The notes under the pieces are model-generated. The model made no database searches and was not told the origin of the DNA. It saw only the letters and a program-made list of their open reading frames with translations. Both the position numbers and the translations under genes were made by a program. From a virus, in IMG/VR virus record IMGVR_UViG_3300043398_000191, positions 1 through 20,175 of that record: 20,175 nt of DNA; one strand, written 5' to 3'. Numbering within the stretch: position 1 is the first letter of the stretch; each line of letters opens with the position of its first letter. Positions 816 to 20,175 of this stretch are shown piece after piece.

Positions 816-1711
816 CAGACCCGCCTAATGTGCAAGTTCCAGGCGTCCAGTTCCGACGTTACGTTCAGCACCTGTGCAGGCGTAACACCAGACCACCAAT
901 CGGTATCCACCCACTCAAGGTCGGATGCGTCCACGCTAACTTTCTGGCCGACTTTCGGGACTATGCGAGGAACGAAGTCAATCTGACGTATCAGCAGTGT
1001 GAGGTCGCCCGCGTGGAATGTCGCGTCCGACTGGCTACGCTTGTTGAACAACTGGTGCGGCAGCATGATGATGGCCGGCATCTGGAGCAGACCCGCAGCA
1101 TACGTATCGGATATAGGGTCGTAAATCTCCGAGCCGAACTCAGCGTAGGTTACAGAAGCCTTATCCATCAAGTCACACTGAGCGCAGGTCAGCCCATCCT
1201 TGGCGGTGTATAACGAGCGGCAGCGGTACAGGCGTCCGTCAGGCCCACGGAACATGCTGCGGGGTTGGGGTGAGGTCTCCGTGCTTGCAAAGTAGATGTT
1301 GTAGAACGGGAAGTATTCGGAGGACGTAGTACCATCCACCGTGTCCTTCAGGTAGTCTTTCCGCCCATAGCATGGGATTCCCGCCTCAGCAAGGATTGCC
1401 TGCCCGGGCGTGAGCACTGAGAACATCTCCGTGGCCCGGCGCATAGGCACTGTCTGGCGTATGGGCCGGCCTAGTACACCGTCCATCGCGGGGTCGCCCA
1501 GCAACCAGGTCTCACCCAGCAAGCTGACGACGCGCCGGGGTGGGAGTGCAAGTCCGGGAGCAAGGCTCATGGAGCGTGACCGGCTGACGCTACCCTCTGG
1601 ACTCGTCTCGTCAAACGTCGAGAACTGCGCCTTGTAGGCGAGTGGGAACCCGGTGTACGGGTCAGTCAGCGCGATGTCGTCAAAGTACCGAGCGGCGTTC
1701 AGGAGCCTCAT
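815..1711 (-). CDS. Head-tail connector region protein, family not recognised
   Basis: A 298-residue protein with a plausible start at 1711 and a weak AAGG upstream. I do not recognise the family from sequence. It is rich in beta-forming and aromatic residues, has a Cys cluster in the middle (CRSLYTAKDGLTCAQC), and has no transmembrane segment or signal peptide. Its position between the head-tail adaptor-like gene and the gp10-like gene is where head-closure (stopper) proteins are encoded, although at 298 residues it is much longer than usual stoppers of about 100-120 residues. It could be a fused or enlarged stopper, or an extra neck protein. Ten bases separate it from the upstream gene, and its stop overlaps the next start. 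It is certain as a gene, and the role is inferred only from position. Confidence 0.65.
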   Translation of the reverse strand: MRLLNAARYFDDIALTDPYTGFPLAYKAQFSTFDETSPEGSVSRSRSMSLAPGLALPPRRVVSLLGETWLLGDPAMDGVLGRPIRQTVPMRRATEMFSVLTPGQAILAEAGIPCYGRKDYLKDTVDGTTSSEYFPFYNIYFASTETSPQPRSMFRGPDGRLYRCRSLYTAKDGLTCAQCDLMDKASVTYAEFGSEIYDPISDTYAAGLLQMPAIIMLPHQLFNKRSQSDATFHAGDLTLLIRQIDFVPRIVPKVGQKVSVDASDLEWVDTDWWSGVTPAQVLNVTSELDAWNLHIRRV

Positions 1712-1721
1712 CCTTGGCCCC

Positions 1722-2222
1722 TTAAACGTTGGTCACCGGGTCGGTTGCGATTCCGGTTGACACGGTGAGACCAGGCGTGTACGTCTCCACTGCCACTGTA
1801 GTCGAGGTCAGGGCCTCATACAGGGACAGCAGGCGCTTGCGCGTGGCGTAGAAACCGGCGAGGACACCCATGCGAGTGTCCGCGAACGGGTCAATCTGCC
1901 TCTCAAACTCTGCACGGCCATCGGTGATACGCTTAGGAGCAAACAGAGGAAGCGATGTGAGTAGGTGCTTTGAAGCGGAATATGCTGAGTACAACTGCAC
2001 AACGTCAAAGAACTTCTGCTGCGATGGCGTTCGGGCCGAGGCCGTGAGAGCCCATACCGCAAGGTATTGGTCAACCATGTCCGACGCAAGGTCGGTCAAC
2101 TCGAAGGTCAACATGCGGACATACAGAGGCAGGGATAACGTCTGGTCCTCAAGTTCCTCCACGCTCACGCCAAGGACCGCTCGGACCTCATCGTAGCTTG
2201 TGTAGTCGGTGAGAATAGACAT
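1722..2222 (-). CDS. Head-tail adaptor/connector protein
   Basis: A 166-residue, mostly helical protein. The N-terminal stretch YTSYDEVRAVLGVSVEELED resembles the opening of gp6/gp15-type head-tail connectors, which start with 'Y.t.dEvRa.LGvs..el.D' and form the ring under the portal. The rest is helical (EL TDLASDMVDQYLAVWALTA and later segments), with a polar Thr/Val-rich tail. It is the first gene of the connector group after the capsid region. Oddly, no Shine-Dalgarno sequence is visible upstream of the ATG (…AATGCGTGC-ATG). The DNA immediately upstream is the edge of the plus-strand endonuclease cassette, which may have displaced the original leader. The call is good for a connector and weaker for the exact type. 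Confidence 0.65.
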   Translation of the reverse strand: MSILTDYTSYDEVRAVLGVSVEELEDQTLSLPLYVRMLTFELTDLASDMVDQYLAVWALTASARTPSQQKFFDVVQLYSAYSASKHLLTSLPLFAPKRITDGRAEFERQIDPFADTRMGVLAGFYATRKRLLSLYEALTSTTVAVETYTPGLTVSTGIATDPVTNV

Positions 2223-2259
2223 GCACGCATTGTAGGTGGGTTGTGGTGTGGAGCGATTT

Positions 2260-2286
2260 CCAAAAAGGAGTTGCTCCGTGTTTTGG
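2260..2286. other. Imperfect hairpin at the left edge of the endonuclease cassette
   Basis: Arms CCAAAA (2260-2265) and TTTTGG (2281-2286) enclose GGAG-TTG-CTCC (2267-2277), with a 1/3 internal loop. Read on the minus strand, the inner stem is followed directly by TTTTT, so it could act as a weak terminator or attenuator just upstream of the connector gene. It also overlaps the -35 region of the plus-strand promoter. The structure is seen directly and the function is inferred. Confidence 0.4.
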
Positions 2287-2300
2287 TTCTGTGTTACACT
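2271..2300 (+). promoter_or_regulatory. Sigma70-like extended -10 promoter for the RHH/endonuclease pair
   Basis: The -10 hexamer TACACT (2295-2300) is preceded by TG-T (2292-2294), giving a textbook extended -10. A weak -35, TTGCTC (2271-2276), lies 18 bp upstream. The RHH start codon is 25 bp downstream, with CAGGAG at 2312-2317 as ribosome-binding site. This gives the inserted plus-strand cassette its own transcription, against the direction of the capsid operon. Confidence 0.6.
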
Positions 2301-2324
2301 CCAATTTTCAACAGGAGTAACACC

Positions 2325-2510
2325 ATGCGCAAACTAAGCAGCTTCTCAATTCCAGAAGAACTCGACACCGCTCTGCGGGGTTATCTGGCAGAGACCGATA
2401 TCAACCTGAGCCGACTCATCCAGCGGCTGCTGACCGCACACCTTGCAGAGAAGGGTGTGGAGATTGTGAAAATCGAGAAGACCGGGCGTGCAGAACGGGT
2501 GGTGGAATAA
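2325..2510 (+). CDS. Small ribbon-helix-helix DNA-binding protein
   Basis: A 61-residue protein. Its N-terminal strand KLSSFSIPEELDTALRGYL, followed by helix ETDINLSRLIQRLLTAHL, is the beta-alpha-alpha layout of the MetJ/Arc/CopG superfamily, which binds DNA as a dimer with the beta-ribbon in the major groove. The start at 2325 is chosen because CAGGAG lies 7 nt upstream; the longer reading from 2241 would run through the promoter. Its stop overlaps the endonuclease start (TAATG at 2508-2512), so the two proteins are translationally coupled. A repressor of its own cassette, or a targeting or accessory factor for the endonuclease, are both possible. The fold call is strong and the role is inferred. 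Confidence 0.75.
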   Translation: MRKLSSFSIPEELDTALRGYLAETDINLSRLIQRLLTAHLAEKGVEIVKIEKTGRAERVVE

Positions 2511-3685
2511 TGGCTTACACCAACATAAACGAAGGTAAACGCCCGGTAGACATGAATGACCCAAGGGTTATTCCTACTGAGACAGTAGAGCGCGACCTAC
2601 GGGACAGGTTTCCTGACCTAGAGTTTCCATATATAAAGCAAGACCACGTAGCAGGTGTGCGATCAAACGTACATGCCTACTGTGAGAAGCACCAGATGTT
2701 CAGCCGTATGCTACTGTCGTCGGCTCGAACCGTGGGTGGCACGAAATACGGCTGCTGGGCCTGCGCTGATGAGCACAAGGGTGGCTCAGGCGGCGGGGAG
2801 CATGGGCACTCGCCGCGTCGCTACGCTCCTGGCTACATCGGTCGCTCTGGTGTGCAGTCAGGTATCTTCCGGGCTGTGAAAGCGGTCTATCCAGATGCAG
2901 TGTGGGAGCATCGGATGGAGAATGGGAAGGAGATCGATATCTTCATCCCGACGCTTGGGTTTGGGATTGAGTACAACGGGAACTACTACCATAGTAGTGC
3001 TGTTGGTAAGGCTTCGGATTATCACGTCCGTAAAACCCTGGGAGGAATCAAAGAGAACAAGAGTATTCTTCACATATTCACGGATGAGGTAGGGCATGAC
3101 TTTACTAAGTTTGCCAGCTACGTTAAAGAGGTTATGCGGCTATACAACATAGTCAACCACTTGGACGCCAACCCTGCTGACAAGCAGCGTATGAGGTTTG
3201 ACCCATATAAAGCAAGACAGCTATCCGTGGCAGAGGGTCGGGCATTCGTGTTGACGCACTCAATCACCTACATGTCTGAGGCTGTGCTCAACGCCTTCGG
3301 CCTATTCATAGGGGTCTACGACCAGCACAAGTCCCTAGTAGCTGTTCTGTACGGTAAGCCCGGAGCGATTTACGGCGTGGCGATGGCGGACACATTCTTC
3401 AACCTCACTGTGGGGTTGCACAGGTACTCCCAACACGCCAAAACCTTGAAATATTACGCGCCACTTCGAGACCCTATGGCCTGCCTGCTGCAGAGATTGC
3501 ACACCCAACAACTTGGATTTGATGTGCACTCTAATCTCACTCCTGATGATCTATACGGCGGGCGTGTTGAGGTAACCAGCCCGGTAGGGTATGGGCTCAC
3601 CAAGGCGACGACGATAGTGCCGTCCGTAGAGGGGTGCGCGCACACCATCTACGACTGCGGCTGGGTGTCGGTCAAGCTGAAGTAG
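2510..3685 (+). CDS. Free-standing Vsr-like (EDxHD-type) homing endonuclease
   Basis: A 391-residue protein. Residues 58-85 hold a CxxH...CxxC zinc-binding pattern (C58, H61, C82, C85), followed by a Gly/His-rich linker. Residues about 115-200 form a Vsr-like nuclease core: E141 and D143 in KEIDIFIP, E154 in GIEYNG, H161 in YYH, and YHVRK (H172, K175). This arrangement is typical of phage homing endonucleases related to I-Bth0305I. The region from about 233 (KARQLSVAEGRAFVLTH...AFGLFIGVYD) resembles the acetyltransferase/Mom-like domain that often follows such nucleases in phages. The gene lies opposite the structural operon, between the capsid gene and the first connector gene, as expected for a mobile intergenic endonuclease. 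Its last 14 bp overlap the end of the convergent 70-residue gene. By eye it is somewhat more AT-rich than its neighbours. Confidence 0.8.
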   Translation: MAYTNINEGKRPVDMNDPRVIPTETVERDLRDRFPDLEFPYIKQDHVAGVRSNVHAYCEKHQMFSRMLLSSARTVGGTKYGCWACADEHKGGSGGGEHGHSPRRYAPGYIGRSGVQSGIFRAVKAVYPDAVWEHRMENGKEIDIFIPTLGFGIEYNGNYYHSSAVGKASDYHVRKTLGGIKENKSILHIFTDEVGHDFTKFASYVKEVMRLYNIVNHLDANPADKQRMRFDPYKARQLSVAEGRAFVLTHSITYMSEAVLNAFGLFIGVYDQHKSLVAVLYGKPGAIYGVAMADTFFNLTVGLHRYSQHAKTLKYYAPLRDPMACLLQRLHTQQLGFDVHSNLTPDDLYGGRVEVTSPVGYGLTKATTIVPSVEGCAHTIYDCGWVSVKLK

Positions 3686-13198: not shown

Positions 13199-13861
13199 TC
13201 AGGTAACAGCCAGACCGTAGGCTTGGTGCCATACCTTAGCGTGGTAAGAGTTGACCTCACCGTAGTTCGCATCGAACACGCGGGTAATCGGGATGCCGAG
13301 CGTTGTGGACAGCCGCTTGAGAATTCGCCAGTCGAATGGGATATCTTTGTGCAGCCGCTCCATGCGCTTGACCGTGGCGTACTGCTTGGCTTTGTCCAGT
13401 TCGATTTCCAGCCGATTCGCCTTCTTCACAGCCTGGCTGGCTGTATTCATGGCTGTGGCTTCTCTGCGGTTTCCGATCTCCGCCTTGGTAGCCTCGGCGC
13501 GTGCGCGGGCTTCGTACTGCAGAGCCCAAGCCCTCGCAGCCTCAGCCGGGTTTGCAAAGTTGGGTATCACAGCGACCGGGGCGGCTGCAGCTTCAAGCTC
13601 TTGCCAGCGGTCAATGATTTTGGCACGCATCTCTACTGAGTAGCCGGACGCAACGATCATCGTGTCCCGGAAAGACAGGTGGAACTCGTAGTAGGTTTGG
13701 CGGTTCTGCGGGTGGGTATAAGGGGTCTCGTTTCCAGAAACGATACCCTCCTCGATCAAGCGCCGAATCGTTTTGAGTACGCTGTCATGTGGACTGCGTA
13801 CCAAATCCGCAATCTCGCGGCTGGACATGGTTTGGCTCGCGCCAACGGTGGATAGTTGCAT
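13199..13861 (-). CDS. rha: Rha-family phage regulatory protein
   Basis: A 220-residue protein. The ATG at 13861 is chosen because GGAG lies 6 nt upstream; the TTG-based extension starts inside the ribosome-binding site. Residues about 12-90 (MSSREIADLVRSPHDSVLKT, YYEFHLSFRDTMIVASGYS, RAKIIDRWQELE) match the Rha domain, a DNA-binding regulator whose presence interferes with growth of certain temperate phages in integration-host-factor mutants. Residues about 100-160 are an Ala/Arg/Glu-rich helix. The C-terminal 55 residues (ERLHKDIPFDWRILKRLSTT, VFDANYGEVNSYH) resemble the C-terminal domain of phage antirepressors. It lies alone between virion genes, behind its own promoter and leader hairpin, so it looks like a moron. 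Rha presence suggests a temperate phage. Confidence 0.82.
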   Translation of the reverse strand: MQLSTVGASQTMSSREIADLVRSPHDSVLKTIRRLIEEGIVSGNETPYTHPQNRQTYYEFHLSFRDTMIVASGYSVEMRAKIIDRWQELEAAAAPVAVIPNFANPAEAARAWALQYEARARAEATKAEIGNRREATAMNTASQAVKKANRLEIELDKAKQYATVKRMERLHKDIPFDWRILKRLSTTLGIPITRVFDANYGEVNSYHAKVWHQAYGLAVT

Positions 13862-13880
13862 TTGAAGCTCCAAAGAGAAA

Positions 13881-15949: not shown

Positions 15950-17632
15950 TCACTGCTTCAACCGGAATGTGGACAGCAGCGGGATGTGGCCGGGTAGAGT
16001 CCAAGCGCCGGCTGTCCCCCTGAGCAAGGTGGCCGTCAGCAGGTAGGTCAGAGCAAAGTGGTAGTGATCTTGACCATTCGTCTTCTTCCACACGAAGGTC
16101 AACTCATCCTTCACGAACTCCTGCGTGCGCTTCATGCTGAGCATTTGCGAGGTAAAGCGGGCTGTCTCAGCGCTTCTAGCGACCAGAATTTTGCGCTCCT
16201 TGAAGATCGTGAGCAACTTATCGAGCATGGCAGTACGTGCGATCTTGACCAGGCGCAGGTTCAGCTTACCTTCCTCTGCGTCTGCCGTCTTTTGCTGCGT
16301 CACAAACAACTCGGTGGAGCGGCTTACAGAAAAAATCGCACCCCAAGCGTTGGGGTCGCTATCCGTAATTCGTGTCACCAAATGCGTCTCCGGCTGCGTA
16401 TCGTGAACCGACGTGATAACCCGAAAGCGAGCACATAACTCACGCCGTCGCGCCTCGAAATTGGCAAGCGGTATGGCTTCTTGGTGCACTACCAGCAGTG
16501 TACCGTCTTGCGTTATGCGCCCTATGCAGACATGGCATAACTGACCCATATCCGCCCCCATAAAGTGAAGCTCCGTAGACTCCAGCGGACTTGCGAAAAT
16601 CGCCTCCTCTATGTCCGCAGGCACAAGCTGGGAATCCTGCTCCTCTGAAGTCTCGCCCAGCACCTGATTCACGAACTCGGAAGTCGAGTTGAACTCGGTC
16701 GAGCTTCGCACCAGGTAATCGGGCTTCAAGACGCGGTGTGCTGTGACCGGCCCCACGTAATACGTCGTTGCTTCAAAATTGTCAGACCCATTCTCAGCCA
16801 CCCACTCAAGGCGGTCGGAATGCAGTTGTGGGTCTTTGCCGCACTCCGGGCACCTCCAACGGGCTTCGCGCCAGCGCAAGTCCTTCAGGTTCATGCGGTC
16901 GATATCCCTCATTGAACCTTCAAAGTCAGGAATCAGGATATCTGACCAGTAATCGGGCAACCACTTATGCTCGCAGTGATAGCAAGAGGCGAAATGCCGG
17001 TACCGAACCGACGCCTGAGCCTCACGATCAATCCCAAGCCCCGCAATTGTGGGTGTGGAGAACTGACGCACCAACTTGTGGGGACTCGCTTGCAGACGCG
17101 AACGGAACTGTTTGAGCACATCAGGGTCTGCTCGATCAAGTTCATCTACTACAAGCAGGTCTGCAGAGATGGACAAGGCGGCAGTATCGGACTTTGTACC
17201 ACGTGTAAACAGGAAGTTTCCATTGATCTCTTTCAGTTCAATTGAATCTACATTGACATTTAGCAGTCGTTTTAGCTCGGGCGTGTTGTATATGATTGGG
17301 TTTAGCTTGGTTGTGACGAGTTTTCCTGCATCACCTGCTGTAGGCAGGGCGTAGATCACATTCATGCGCTGCGTTGCTAATACAGACAGAAAATAGGCCA
17401 TAGTAGTCACTGTCAGACCAATTTGAGCGCATTTGACGGTGTTTACCACCCTTGATGGGTCATCCATCACACGTCTTTGGAACTCATAATTCTCAAAAGA
17501 CAGCTTCTTTCCCTCTAAATACAGGTACTTTTCGACCCAATTTGACAAGCTCGTCAGGCTATACGTATCGTCAAGTGCCTCTTGGATGCGTGTCAGATGG
17601 TCACTGTATGGCGTTTTTTGATCTAATTTCAT
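15950..17632 (-). CDS. terL: Terminase large subunit, gpA-like
   Basis: A 560-residue protein that drives DNA into the prohead and cuts the concatemer. The ATPase part has an atypical Walker A (VKCAQIGLTVTT, about 66-77), of the type seen in lambda gpA and relatives. It also has Walker B LLVVDELDRAD (159-169; D163, E164) and a coupling motif FSTPT (191-195). CxxC pairs at 217/220 and 261/264 form the zinc element of this family. The nuclease part begins near GADMGQLCHVCIGR (D361), with a second likely acidic site later and DHYHFALTYLL near the end. Its length is near the low end for gpA proteins. It starts inside the stop of the proline-rich small gene (ATGA). This family typically cuts at cos sites, which fits the repeats upstream of the small genes. 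Confidence 0.9.
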   Translation of the reverse strand: MKLDQKTPYSDHLTRIQEALDDTYSLTSLSNWVEKYLYLEGKKLSFENYEFQRRVMDDPSRVVNTVKCAQIGLTVTTMAYFLSVLATQRMNVIYALPTAGDAGKLVTTKLNPIIYNTPELKRLLNVNVDSIELKEINGNFLFTRGTKSDTAALSISADLLVVDELDRADPDVLKQFRSRLQASPHKLVRQFSTPTIAGLGIDREAQASVRYRHFASCYHCEHKWLPDYWSDILIPDFEGSMRDIDRMNLKDLRWREARWRCPECGKDPQLHSDRLEWVAENGSDNFEATTYYVGPVTAHRVLKPDYLVRSSTEFNSTSEFVNQVLGETSEEQDSQLVPADIEEAIFASPLESTELHFMGADMGQLCHVCIGRITQDGTLLVVHQEAIPLANFEARRRELCARFRVITSVHDTQPETHLVTRITDSDPNAWGAIFSVSRSTELFVTQQKTADAEEGKLNLRLVKIARTAMLDKLLTIFKERKILVARSAETARFTSQMLSMKRTQEFVKDELTFVWKKTNGQDHYHFALTYLLTATLLRGTAGAWTLPGHIPLLSTFRLKQ

Positions 17633-18510: not shown

Positions 18511-18562
18511 AGTACGTTATGAAAGTACGTTATGAAAGTACGTTATGAAAGTACGTTATGAA
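18511..18562. repeat. Four perfect 13-bp tandem repeats (iterons)
   Basis: The unit AGTACGTTATGAA occurs four times head to tail, starting at 18511, 18524, 18537 and 18550, without a single mismatch. An AT-rich stretch (TTTAAATTTATAAGG) follows. The repeats lie 87 bp upstream of the HTH gene start, in a region without genes (18425-18965). The left part, 18425-18510, is G/T-rich on the plus strand. Candidate roles are binding sites for the HTH protein in a cos/pac site, an operator, or an origin. Confidence 0.85.
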
Positions 18563-18692
18563 AGTTTTAGGTTTAAATTTATAAGGAAAGTGGACCAGGA
18601 CAAGCCGCGAACGCCACGACGCCTACAGACGCCATACGTCAATCCGTAAGCGTCATGTAAGGTTTTCATGCTAGGGTTCCCCTGCACATCCG

Positions 18693-18965: not shown

Positions 18966-19469
18966 ATGACTAACGCAACCGCAACCGCAACCGCAACCGC
19001 AACCGCAACCGCAACCGCAACCACTGCCAGCAACGAAGTTGGATTCGTTGCCCTGACCACGCTTAAGGGCAAGGGCACCACTGCCCTGCAAAAGGTTAGC
19101 AACCACACCAACAACGGCGCCTTGAAAGGCGCGCTGATAGCTCAAGCCATCGGCCGAAAGGCCATTGTAGATGACATGGCAAATGAGGGCATGGCCCTTA
19201 CCATCCATGCCTTATCTGTAGGCAACATAAGGCCGGCAATGGCCTTAGTTATAGCTAAATGGGGTAAACCCTATAGCATGTTGACCGAAGGCGGTAAGGC
19301 ACCCTACTCCGAGTGGCTCCGTCTCGGTGCCACCCTAGCCAATGAGGGCCGGACGAATAAGGCGGGAAAGCTTACAGCTGTAGGCAAAGCATACGACCTA
19401 TTCCAACACCTCAGCACAGCCAGTGCAGCGCTCCGAGAGTCACGAGAACAGGCGAAACTCAGCACCTAA
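18966..19469 (+). CDS. Protein of unknown function with N-terminal (Thr-Ala) repeat
   Basis: A 167-residue protein. The ATG at 18966 is preferred over an upstream TTG because GGGGAAGA is spaced correctly for it. After MTN, eight Ala-Thr pairs form a flexible linker encoded by a perfect hexanucleotide repeat. From about residue 27 the sequence is helical and basic: TTLKGKGTTALQKVSNHTNN, LIAQAIGRKAIVDDMANEG, IRPAMALVIAKWGKPYSM, YSEWLRLGATLANEGRTN and AYDLFQHLSTASAALRESRE. The charge and small-residue content could fit nucleic-acid binding, but no family is recognised. It is the only rightward gene outside the endonuclease cassette. It has its own promoter and structured leader and precedes the structured non-coding region, so it may be an early or middle gene. 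Confidence 0.7.
   Translation: MTNATATATATATATATATTASNEVGFVALTTLKGKGTTALQKVSNHTNNGALKGALIAQAIGRKAIVDDMANEGMALTIHALSVGNIRPAMALVIAKWGKPYSMLTEGGKAPYSEWLRLGATLANEGRTNKAGKLTAVGKAYDLFQHLSTASAALRESREQAKLST
18975..19022 (+). repeat. Perfect hexanucleotide repeat (GCAACC)x8
   Basis: Eight uninterrupted GCAACC units inside the start of the 167-residue gene encode Ala-Thr pairs. Because the unit is six bases, gain or loss of copies changes linker length without shifting the frame. Confidence 0.95.
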
Positions 19470-19476
19470 CCCTCCA

Positions 19477-19528
19477 GTGGGCATGTATGCCCACCTTAAG
19501 CAAACCTTACATGTAGGGTTTGCTTAAG
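19477..19528 (+). other. Two back-to-back perfect hairpins after the gene
   Basis: GTGGGCAT-GT-ATGCCCAC (19477-19494, 8 bp) is followed without a gap by a 12-bp perfect stem of CTTAAGCAAACC and GGTTTGCTTAAG (19495-19506 and 19517-19528) with a 10-nt loop. The loop holds the palindrome TACATGTA, so loop-loop pairing is possible. There is no T-run. They could be a factor-dependent terminator, an mRNA stabiliser, or a boundary before the structured RNA region. Confidence 0.65.
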
Positions 19529-19582
19529 GGATTGACAAATCCGCTACCTATCGGTGATCGTGCCGATTGTATATAGACCTGT

Positions 19583-20175
19583 TCTTTGTGTGTCGTTTCG
19601 CTTAATCACGACTGGAAACTACGTAGATTAAGTCGAGCCGCCGCATGCTTTCCACGGATTAGCATGATGGTAACGACATACAGCGTTCAGGGTAACCCTA
19701 TATTCTAGGTTTTCTTTAAAAACACATAGAGTTATAAAACGATTACGGATTAGTCAAATAATCCGGGAGCGTTTACTTCGAGGACAGTATCCACAATGCT
19801 TGCATATCGCAGTGTTGTGTATCTGGCGCGCTGGGTGAAATGGATACGTTTTGCGAACTGCCTACACATTCGCAAAACCCTATTAAGCCCGTATCTGTAA
19901 CGGATAAAGCGACTTATACACATCACAAGTGATTCAGCATTGCACGGATAGTGGCATGTAAACGTATTGGGTCAGTCTTGGCCGATACAGTGAAGCGATT
20001 AGCGAACGCTTCGCGGTATTGGATGGATGACAGTAAACCGGACGTAATAGGTTAATCGCAGTCAGTCGTTTTAGTGTGTGGAACACACAATTTACGCTTG
20101 CGGCGATGCAGCGTAAACCGTGGCGTATGCGAACCGGCCAAAAGCCCCATGCATACACACCCAACAATTACGCAT
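19583..20175 (+). ncRNA. Candidate large structured non-coding RNA (5' part)
   Basis: There is no credible protein gene for about 700 bp, but there are nested, mostly perfect stems. An 11-bp stem, 19587-19597 with 19672-19682, encloses two hairpins (CTTAATCACG side 19601-19632; CATGCT/AGCATG 19644-19666), forming a three-way junction. Then AAACG/CGTTT around GGATTA/TAATCC (19737-19774, 5x5 internal loop), and GATACG/CGTATC around a 9-bp stem (19843-19895). Then CCGATAC/GTATTGG around GAAGCG/CGCTTC (19982-20022, 3x3 loop), GTGTGT/ACACAC (20074-20088), TTTACGC/GCGTAAA (20091-20117) and GTATGC/GCATAC (20125-20156). The imperfect pairs in the 11-bp stem and the 19982 stem are G-U in plus-strand RNA but C-A on the other strand. 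TATAGA at 19572-19577 could be the -10. It continues past the window end. Confidence 0.6.

Follow-up and report, generated by a model that had tools for sequence, protein, structure and literature searches.

The question raised by this locus is whether a long stretch of phage DNA without genes, lying beside the terminase genes, specifies a large structured RNA, and if so of which kind. The window analysed is the whole virus record IMGVR_UViG_3300043398_000191, 20,175 bases. Its head module is on the minus strand (TerL at 15950-17632, portal, S49-type protease, major capsid protein), and the plus strand upstream of the terminase genes carries a small ORF (18966-19469) and then the RNA region (19470-20175), which runs to the end of the record. 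There is also an HNH/homing-endonuclease-like gene on the plus strand (2510-3685; PHROG 3339, E 1e-12) amid the minus-strand head module, and an anti-repressor-like gene (13199-13873, minus strand; PHROG 4936 and 63) in the structural module. Upstream of the small ORF, at 18511-18575, a 13-bp repeat (AGTACGTTATGAA) is present in four tandem copies, with two copies in the near-identical phage L004.

A sequence-only reading had described about 590 nt without a credible ORF at 19583-20175, and this held. No plus-strand ORF of at least 50 aa is present in this interval, where the only ORFs, of 58 and 77 aa, are on the minus strand. The plus strand of 19570-20175 has a folding energy of -203 kcal/mol, where dinucleotide shuffles average -164.8 +/- 6.6 (z -5.8, 0/20 shuffles as good), while the minus strand in the same test gives z -1.5. 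The incomplete core RNA downstream of the boxA-like sequence (19723-20175, plus strand) on its own gives z -3.9, and -1.5 for its minus strand. That the folded structure is real is very likely, indeed close to certain. The boundaries proposed in the sequence-only reading were too narrow, as the RNA element starts at about 19477, just past the stop codon of the small ORF, where the conserved element opens with two hairpins (19477-19494 and 19494-19529), and it extends beyond the record end, where the sequence ACAAUUACGCAU stands. Judged from contig L041, some 300 nt of the 3' part are probably missing. A scan for sigma-70 promoters found nothing above chance.

There was no DNA match to the window in the phage collection, and a search of the genome collection for TerL relatives found none; the TerL proteins of the nearest named phages are only ~27% identical. 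Relatives were reached through the small ORF, which led to L003, and through the terminase, which led to L004-L013; alignments of both then raised the numbers to 70 loci by terminase and nine by ORF, in overlapping sets. In about 35 viral contigs with enough sequence, all of one phage lineage, one layout is seen, in which the terminase genes are on one strand and, divergently, a small variable ORF is followed by the hairpins hp1 and hp2, a boxA-like site, and an RNA of ~450-850 nt. The locus is beside the terminase genes in all relatives. No conserved reading frame was seen through the region; such a frame would have refuted the sequence-only reading. Some candidates were rejected as chance matches: one ORF match in the genome collection, L048, which falls within a longer unrelated protein, L030-L033, L035, L037, and L038 from a scan with the 3' motif, and L105 and L110 from a scan with the core motif. 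Contigs L042 and L043, both of the same metagenome, stop at an identical sequence within the RNA, and the ends of many others fall in or near the locus, as expected for a variable region in assembly. In L047, an ORF judged from its sequence to be TnpB-like (1411-2397, minus strand) is between the portal and TerL genes.

Directly after the ORF are the two hairpins, hp1 at 19477-19494 and the long hp2, a perfect palindrome, at 19494-19529, both on the plus strand. A stem of at least 12 bp within 130 nt of the ORF stop codon is present in 35/35 loci, compared with 28% of shuffles, and in 32/35 loci (22% of shuffles) the 3' arm of hp1 overlaps the 5' arm of hp2. In those 32 loci the two hairpins are mutually exclusive, since the overlapping arms compete for one strand; in the window itself they merely abut, without overlap. 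The 35 loci are not fully independent, several being close relatives. As a general reading, hp1 is not a plain intrinsic terminator, because the T run is not conserved.

Between these hairpins and the boxA-like site is a domain in which sequence differs among relatives while the pairing is kept in each. The plus-strand E1 hairpin (19550-19567), with the stem AUCGG/CCGAU in the window, has other complementary pairs in the relatives. The three-way junction placed at 19587-19682 by the sequence-only reading was confirmed in that position (19588-19681, plus strand, closing helix 19588-19597/19672-19681), and it carries arm A (19601-19607/19626-19632) and arm B (19644-19649/19661-19666), the latter capped by a CC[CU]A[CA]GG-type loop. 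Relatives form this junction too, from different letters. A block of ~32 nt is common to arm B and to L041-L043, and L017 has a block in common with the window around boxA. The covariation of this 5' domain is shown helix by helix without a formal count, because cross-group MAFFT alignments were too poor.

For the window's own core there are only four clear relatives. L003, L017, and L029 have 86-93% identity to the window over 41-52 nt close to its end. Hairpin X (20091-20117, plus strand, 8-bp stem 20091-20098/20110-20117) has wholly different complementary stems: where the window has UUUACGCU/AGCGUAAA, L040 has UCUAACAC/GUGUUAGA and L039 has AUACC/GGUAU. Hairpin Y (20125-20156, plus strand), which holds the family's most conserved block (GCGAACCGG...AGCCCCATGC), has one compensatory change, a U-A pair in the window being C-G in L040. 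The core alignment of L017, L029, and L003 has two-sided changes in 15/97 predicted pairs, with a total covariation term that is unfavourable, so that covariation in these three members is weak on its own. In L044-L046 there are two-sided changes in 21/258 pairs, and the RNA ends with a hairpin that resembles a terminator, with a T run. For L041 and L025 the cores fold no better than shuffled sequence (z -0.3 and -0.4).

Support for a conserved RNA comes also from a sister group with a distinct core, eight contigs with TerL 38-40% identical to that of the window, in which an RNA of ~690 nt is found between the ORF and the next gene. In seven of the eight, 90.9% of cells pair, and two-sided changes are seen in 87/182 pairs, against 51.8 +/- 4.0 in shuffles. 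The covariation score is 0.449, compared with 0.218 +/- 0.012 for shuffles and no more than 0.10 for slid versions, although the alignment that was scored also supplied the structure, giving it an advantage over the latter. Near the 3' end an H-type pseudoknot is retained while its letters vary (GUCCC/GGGAC, UUUACCG/CGGUAAA, UUUCCC/GGGAAA, UCUCG/CGAGA, CCCUCCCC/GGGGAGGG). When the structure was predicted without G-U pairs, 50 G-U and 10 A-C cells were found, which indicates the plus strand. That the wobble pairs are G-U only on the plus strand had been claimed for two long stems of the window; the check was made in the sister group only and not on those stems. The last helix is followed directly by the next gene, with its ribosome-binding site. 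A covariance model built from the 3'-terminal 87 positions matches three contigs that had no part in its training, L072, L087, and L078 (E 2e-11 or better), of which L078 is a near copy of a training member. The model of the sister-group core matches 12 contigs, all of the sister group, and has no match in the window, so one common core for all the relatives is not shown. What the window and the sister group demonstrably have in common is position and leader layout, not a common origin of their cores.

The boxA-like sequence of the window, TTTTCTTTAAAAA, is at 19710-19722 on the plus strand. In the first 260 nt past the ORF, TC[AT]TTAA[AC]A is present in 21/35 loci (shuffle mean 0.33, maximum 2), with close variants in four further loci, and 21 of the 23 occurrences in all of the upstream sequence examined fall at this position. 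The published boxA consensus is GYTCTTTAANA (PMC5725501). The window sequence TTTTCTTTAAAAAC fits it save for the first position, and L029 and L085 fit in full. The motif matches boxA in the rRNA leaders of E. coli rrnB (TGCTCTTTAACAATTT) and Burkholderia multivorans (GTTCTTTAAAAAC, 185 nt ahead of the 16S gene), and Acinetobacter has a TCATTAA form; the rrn leaders of Sphingomonas, Paracoccus, Azospirillum, and Stenotrophomonas were uninformative. In rRNA operons boxA has been described as necessary and sufficient to recruit antitermination factors (PMC10250234). The window site meets the sequence criterion for boxA, while binding of NusB-S10 and read-through of terminators are inferred from sequence alone.

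The small ORF directly upstream of the RNA (18966-19469, plus strand) encodes 167 aa with a pI of 9.9. The protein is predicted to be all-helical (mean pLDDT 78), and searches of Pfam, PHROGs, PDB, and BFVD gave no match to it by sequence or fold. Relatives have ORFs at the same place that are either 37-48% identical to it or unrelated, and those at other loci are unrelated to each other, often alanine-rich, and in many cases acidic. A CAACCG-type repeat is present at 18974-19021, the 5' end of the window ORF, and the ORFs of L004, L006, L010, and L013 also contain low-complexity alanine-rich repeats.

Exchange of the ORF can be seen directly. The TerL proteins of the window and L004 are identical and their DNA is ~86% identical up to 18966, where similarity ends at the ORF start; past this point both ORF and RNA are unrelated. 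L017 and L029 have the region of the first codons in common and are different over the remainder of the ORF and across the 5' RNA domain; similarity resumes ~50 nt ahead of boxA and reaches into the core (81-93% in matching stretches). This pattern indicates that the ORF and 5' domain travel together and that boxA and the core are a separate unit. The sharp breakpoints, in window/L004 at 18966 and in L017/L029, mark a hypervariable cassette beside the terminase genes.

By size and location, GOLLD and ROOL are the nearest known kinds of RNA (PMC12286853), and the sequence-only reading had offered either a divergent member of these or a new class. The covariance match that defines them is absent. 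With Rfam 15, cmscan of the window found no match at gathering thresholds and one chance match at E up to 10, and in nine relatives there was nothing at gathering and only chance matches at permissive thresholds; the RNA is therefore not recognisably GOLLD, ROOL, OLE, or HEARO. GOLLD is likewise a large ornate phage and prophage RNA, of at least 800 nt, with a 3' part more conserved than the 5' part and function unknown (PMC12286853), and is often near tRNA genes, whereas ARAGORN found no tRNA in the window, and only L003 has one, a tRNA-Arg ~2 kb downstream. Also unlike GOLLD, this RNA is preceded by a small ORF, hp1/hp2, and boxA. Assembly as a multimeric RNA cage is a further mark of GOLLD. 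ROOL is a phage RNA of ~600 nt with a complex structure, pseudoknots, and no known protein partner (PMC12286853), but the window RNA differs in having boxA and in belonging to a probable operon next to the terminase genes. The evidence favours a new class, although a shared three-dimensional fold with GOLLD or ROOL was not compared. Bacterial rRNA leaders also have a boxA-like sequence and a hairpin-rich leader followed by a long untranslated structured RNA (PMC10250234, PMC5725501); here, however, the locus is that of a phage, the RNA is not ribosomal, no boxC was identified, and long-range closing helices are predicted in some groups only.

We prefer to explain the locus as a large phage RNA of a new class, which uses host Nus antitermination for its transcription and acts after release from a joint transcript, a reading that could prove wrong as readily as right. 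Homology, conserved layout, compensatory pairing, the boxA-like sequence, and plus-strand bias are shown; transcription, Nus recruitment, processing, and action in trans are inferred. The RNA would probably be co-transcribed with the small, fast-diverging ORF, out of the region that diverges from the terminase genes. Through boxA in the emerging transcript, RNA polymerase would acquire the host NusB-S10 (Nus) complex; this would shield the long untranslated RNA from Rho and may aid its folding, as for ribosomal RNA. The tandem hairpins past the ORF would probably be where messenger and RNA are parted, through RNase III cleavage or a two-hairpin switch, and the core RNA (~450-850 nt) would act during infection as RNA or as an RNA-protein complex. 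The plus-strand folding bias is found in the window and in relatives, and the core of L017 and L029 is kept across exchange of ORF and leader. The earlier claim that this phage genome has a large and ornate non-coding RNA on its plus strand is supported by compensatory changes in relatives, the lack of a conserved reading frame, and strand asymmetry, with no transcript data. Against our reading stand the lack of transcript data, a boxA function inferred from sequence, the few relatives of the window's own core with their unfavourable covariation term, the unremarkable stability of the L041 and L025 cores, and the failure of the sister-group core model to match the window; the ribosome-binding site that directly follows in the sister group could also fit a cis-acting leader.

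The main rival, which remains possible, is such a leader: an oversized nut-like antitermination element acting in cis, in which the long RNA is a folded part of the messenger and not an independent product. The product of the small ORF would then resemble N, binding the RNA domain immediately 5' of boxA and, together with Nus factors, taking polymerase through the early operon. As in lambda nut/N, a phage boxA is beside a hairpin domain that swaps with a small ORF. In favour of this are the joint swap of ORF and 5' domain while boxA and core stay (L017, L029), the joint swap of ORF and whole RNA between the window and L004, the RNA domain directly preceding boxA, the basic ORF product of the window, and the start of the next gene straight after the last helix in the sister group. 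Unlike lambda, however, the hairpin domain here is 5' of boxA, and boxA is followed by several hundred nucleotides of conserved, covarying structure with a pseudoknot, beyond the needs of a nut site. The phage ORFs have no detectable relation to N, are unrelated to each other, and are acidic at many loci, and the RNA of L044-L046 ends in a terminator-like hairpin with a T run. A nut-like leader would explain why ORF and leader are swapped jointly; it leaves the size and conservation of the core unexplained.

The other alternatives are very unlikely. A highly divergent GOLLD or ROOL would fit the similar size, the phage location, and the conserved 3' and variable 5' parts (PMC12286853), but neither the window nor nine relatives gave a covariance match even when thresholds were permissive, and the absence of tRNA from the window and the boxA and hp1/hp2 leader also speak against it. 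An element acting as DNA (replication origin, cos/pac site) or a chance structure, instead of an RNA, might be suggested by the adjoining terminase genes and by perfect palindromic hairpins such as that at 19494-19529; it is disfavoured by the strand asymmetry of folding and by the excess of G-U over A-C cells, and two-sided changes are far above shuffles. BoxA, moreover, functions in RNA only. A packaging RNA for the DNA packaging motor, by analogy with phi29 pRNA, would explain the constant place beside the terminase genes in all relatives, but the RNAs of the window and L004 are wholly different despite identical large terminase proteins, and the phage RNA is on the other strand and several times the size of pRNA.

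To return to the preferred reading of a new RNA class, a bolder form of it is possible, in which a giant trans-acting RNA, made through boxA with the host rRNA transcription machinery, has as partners a protein and a leader domain that are rapidly exchanged, and forms an RNA-protein particle for infection or counter-defence. As the RNA encodes no protein, matches no catalogued family, and contains a copy of boxA, a signal of bacterial rRNA transcription, it is a good candidate to found a new class of giant viral RNAs. Very large RNAs of phages and bacteria fall into only a few known classes, most of them without a function. Since this one has a defined genomic partner in the small ORF, a host-factor site, and natural cassette swaps, its role is directly testable; the host-factor site predicts how the RNA is produced, and the swaps reveal which parts belong together. 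This would suggest that phages may exploit the antitermination signal of ribosomal RNA for a long RNA of their own.
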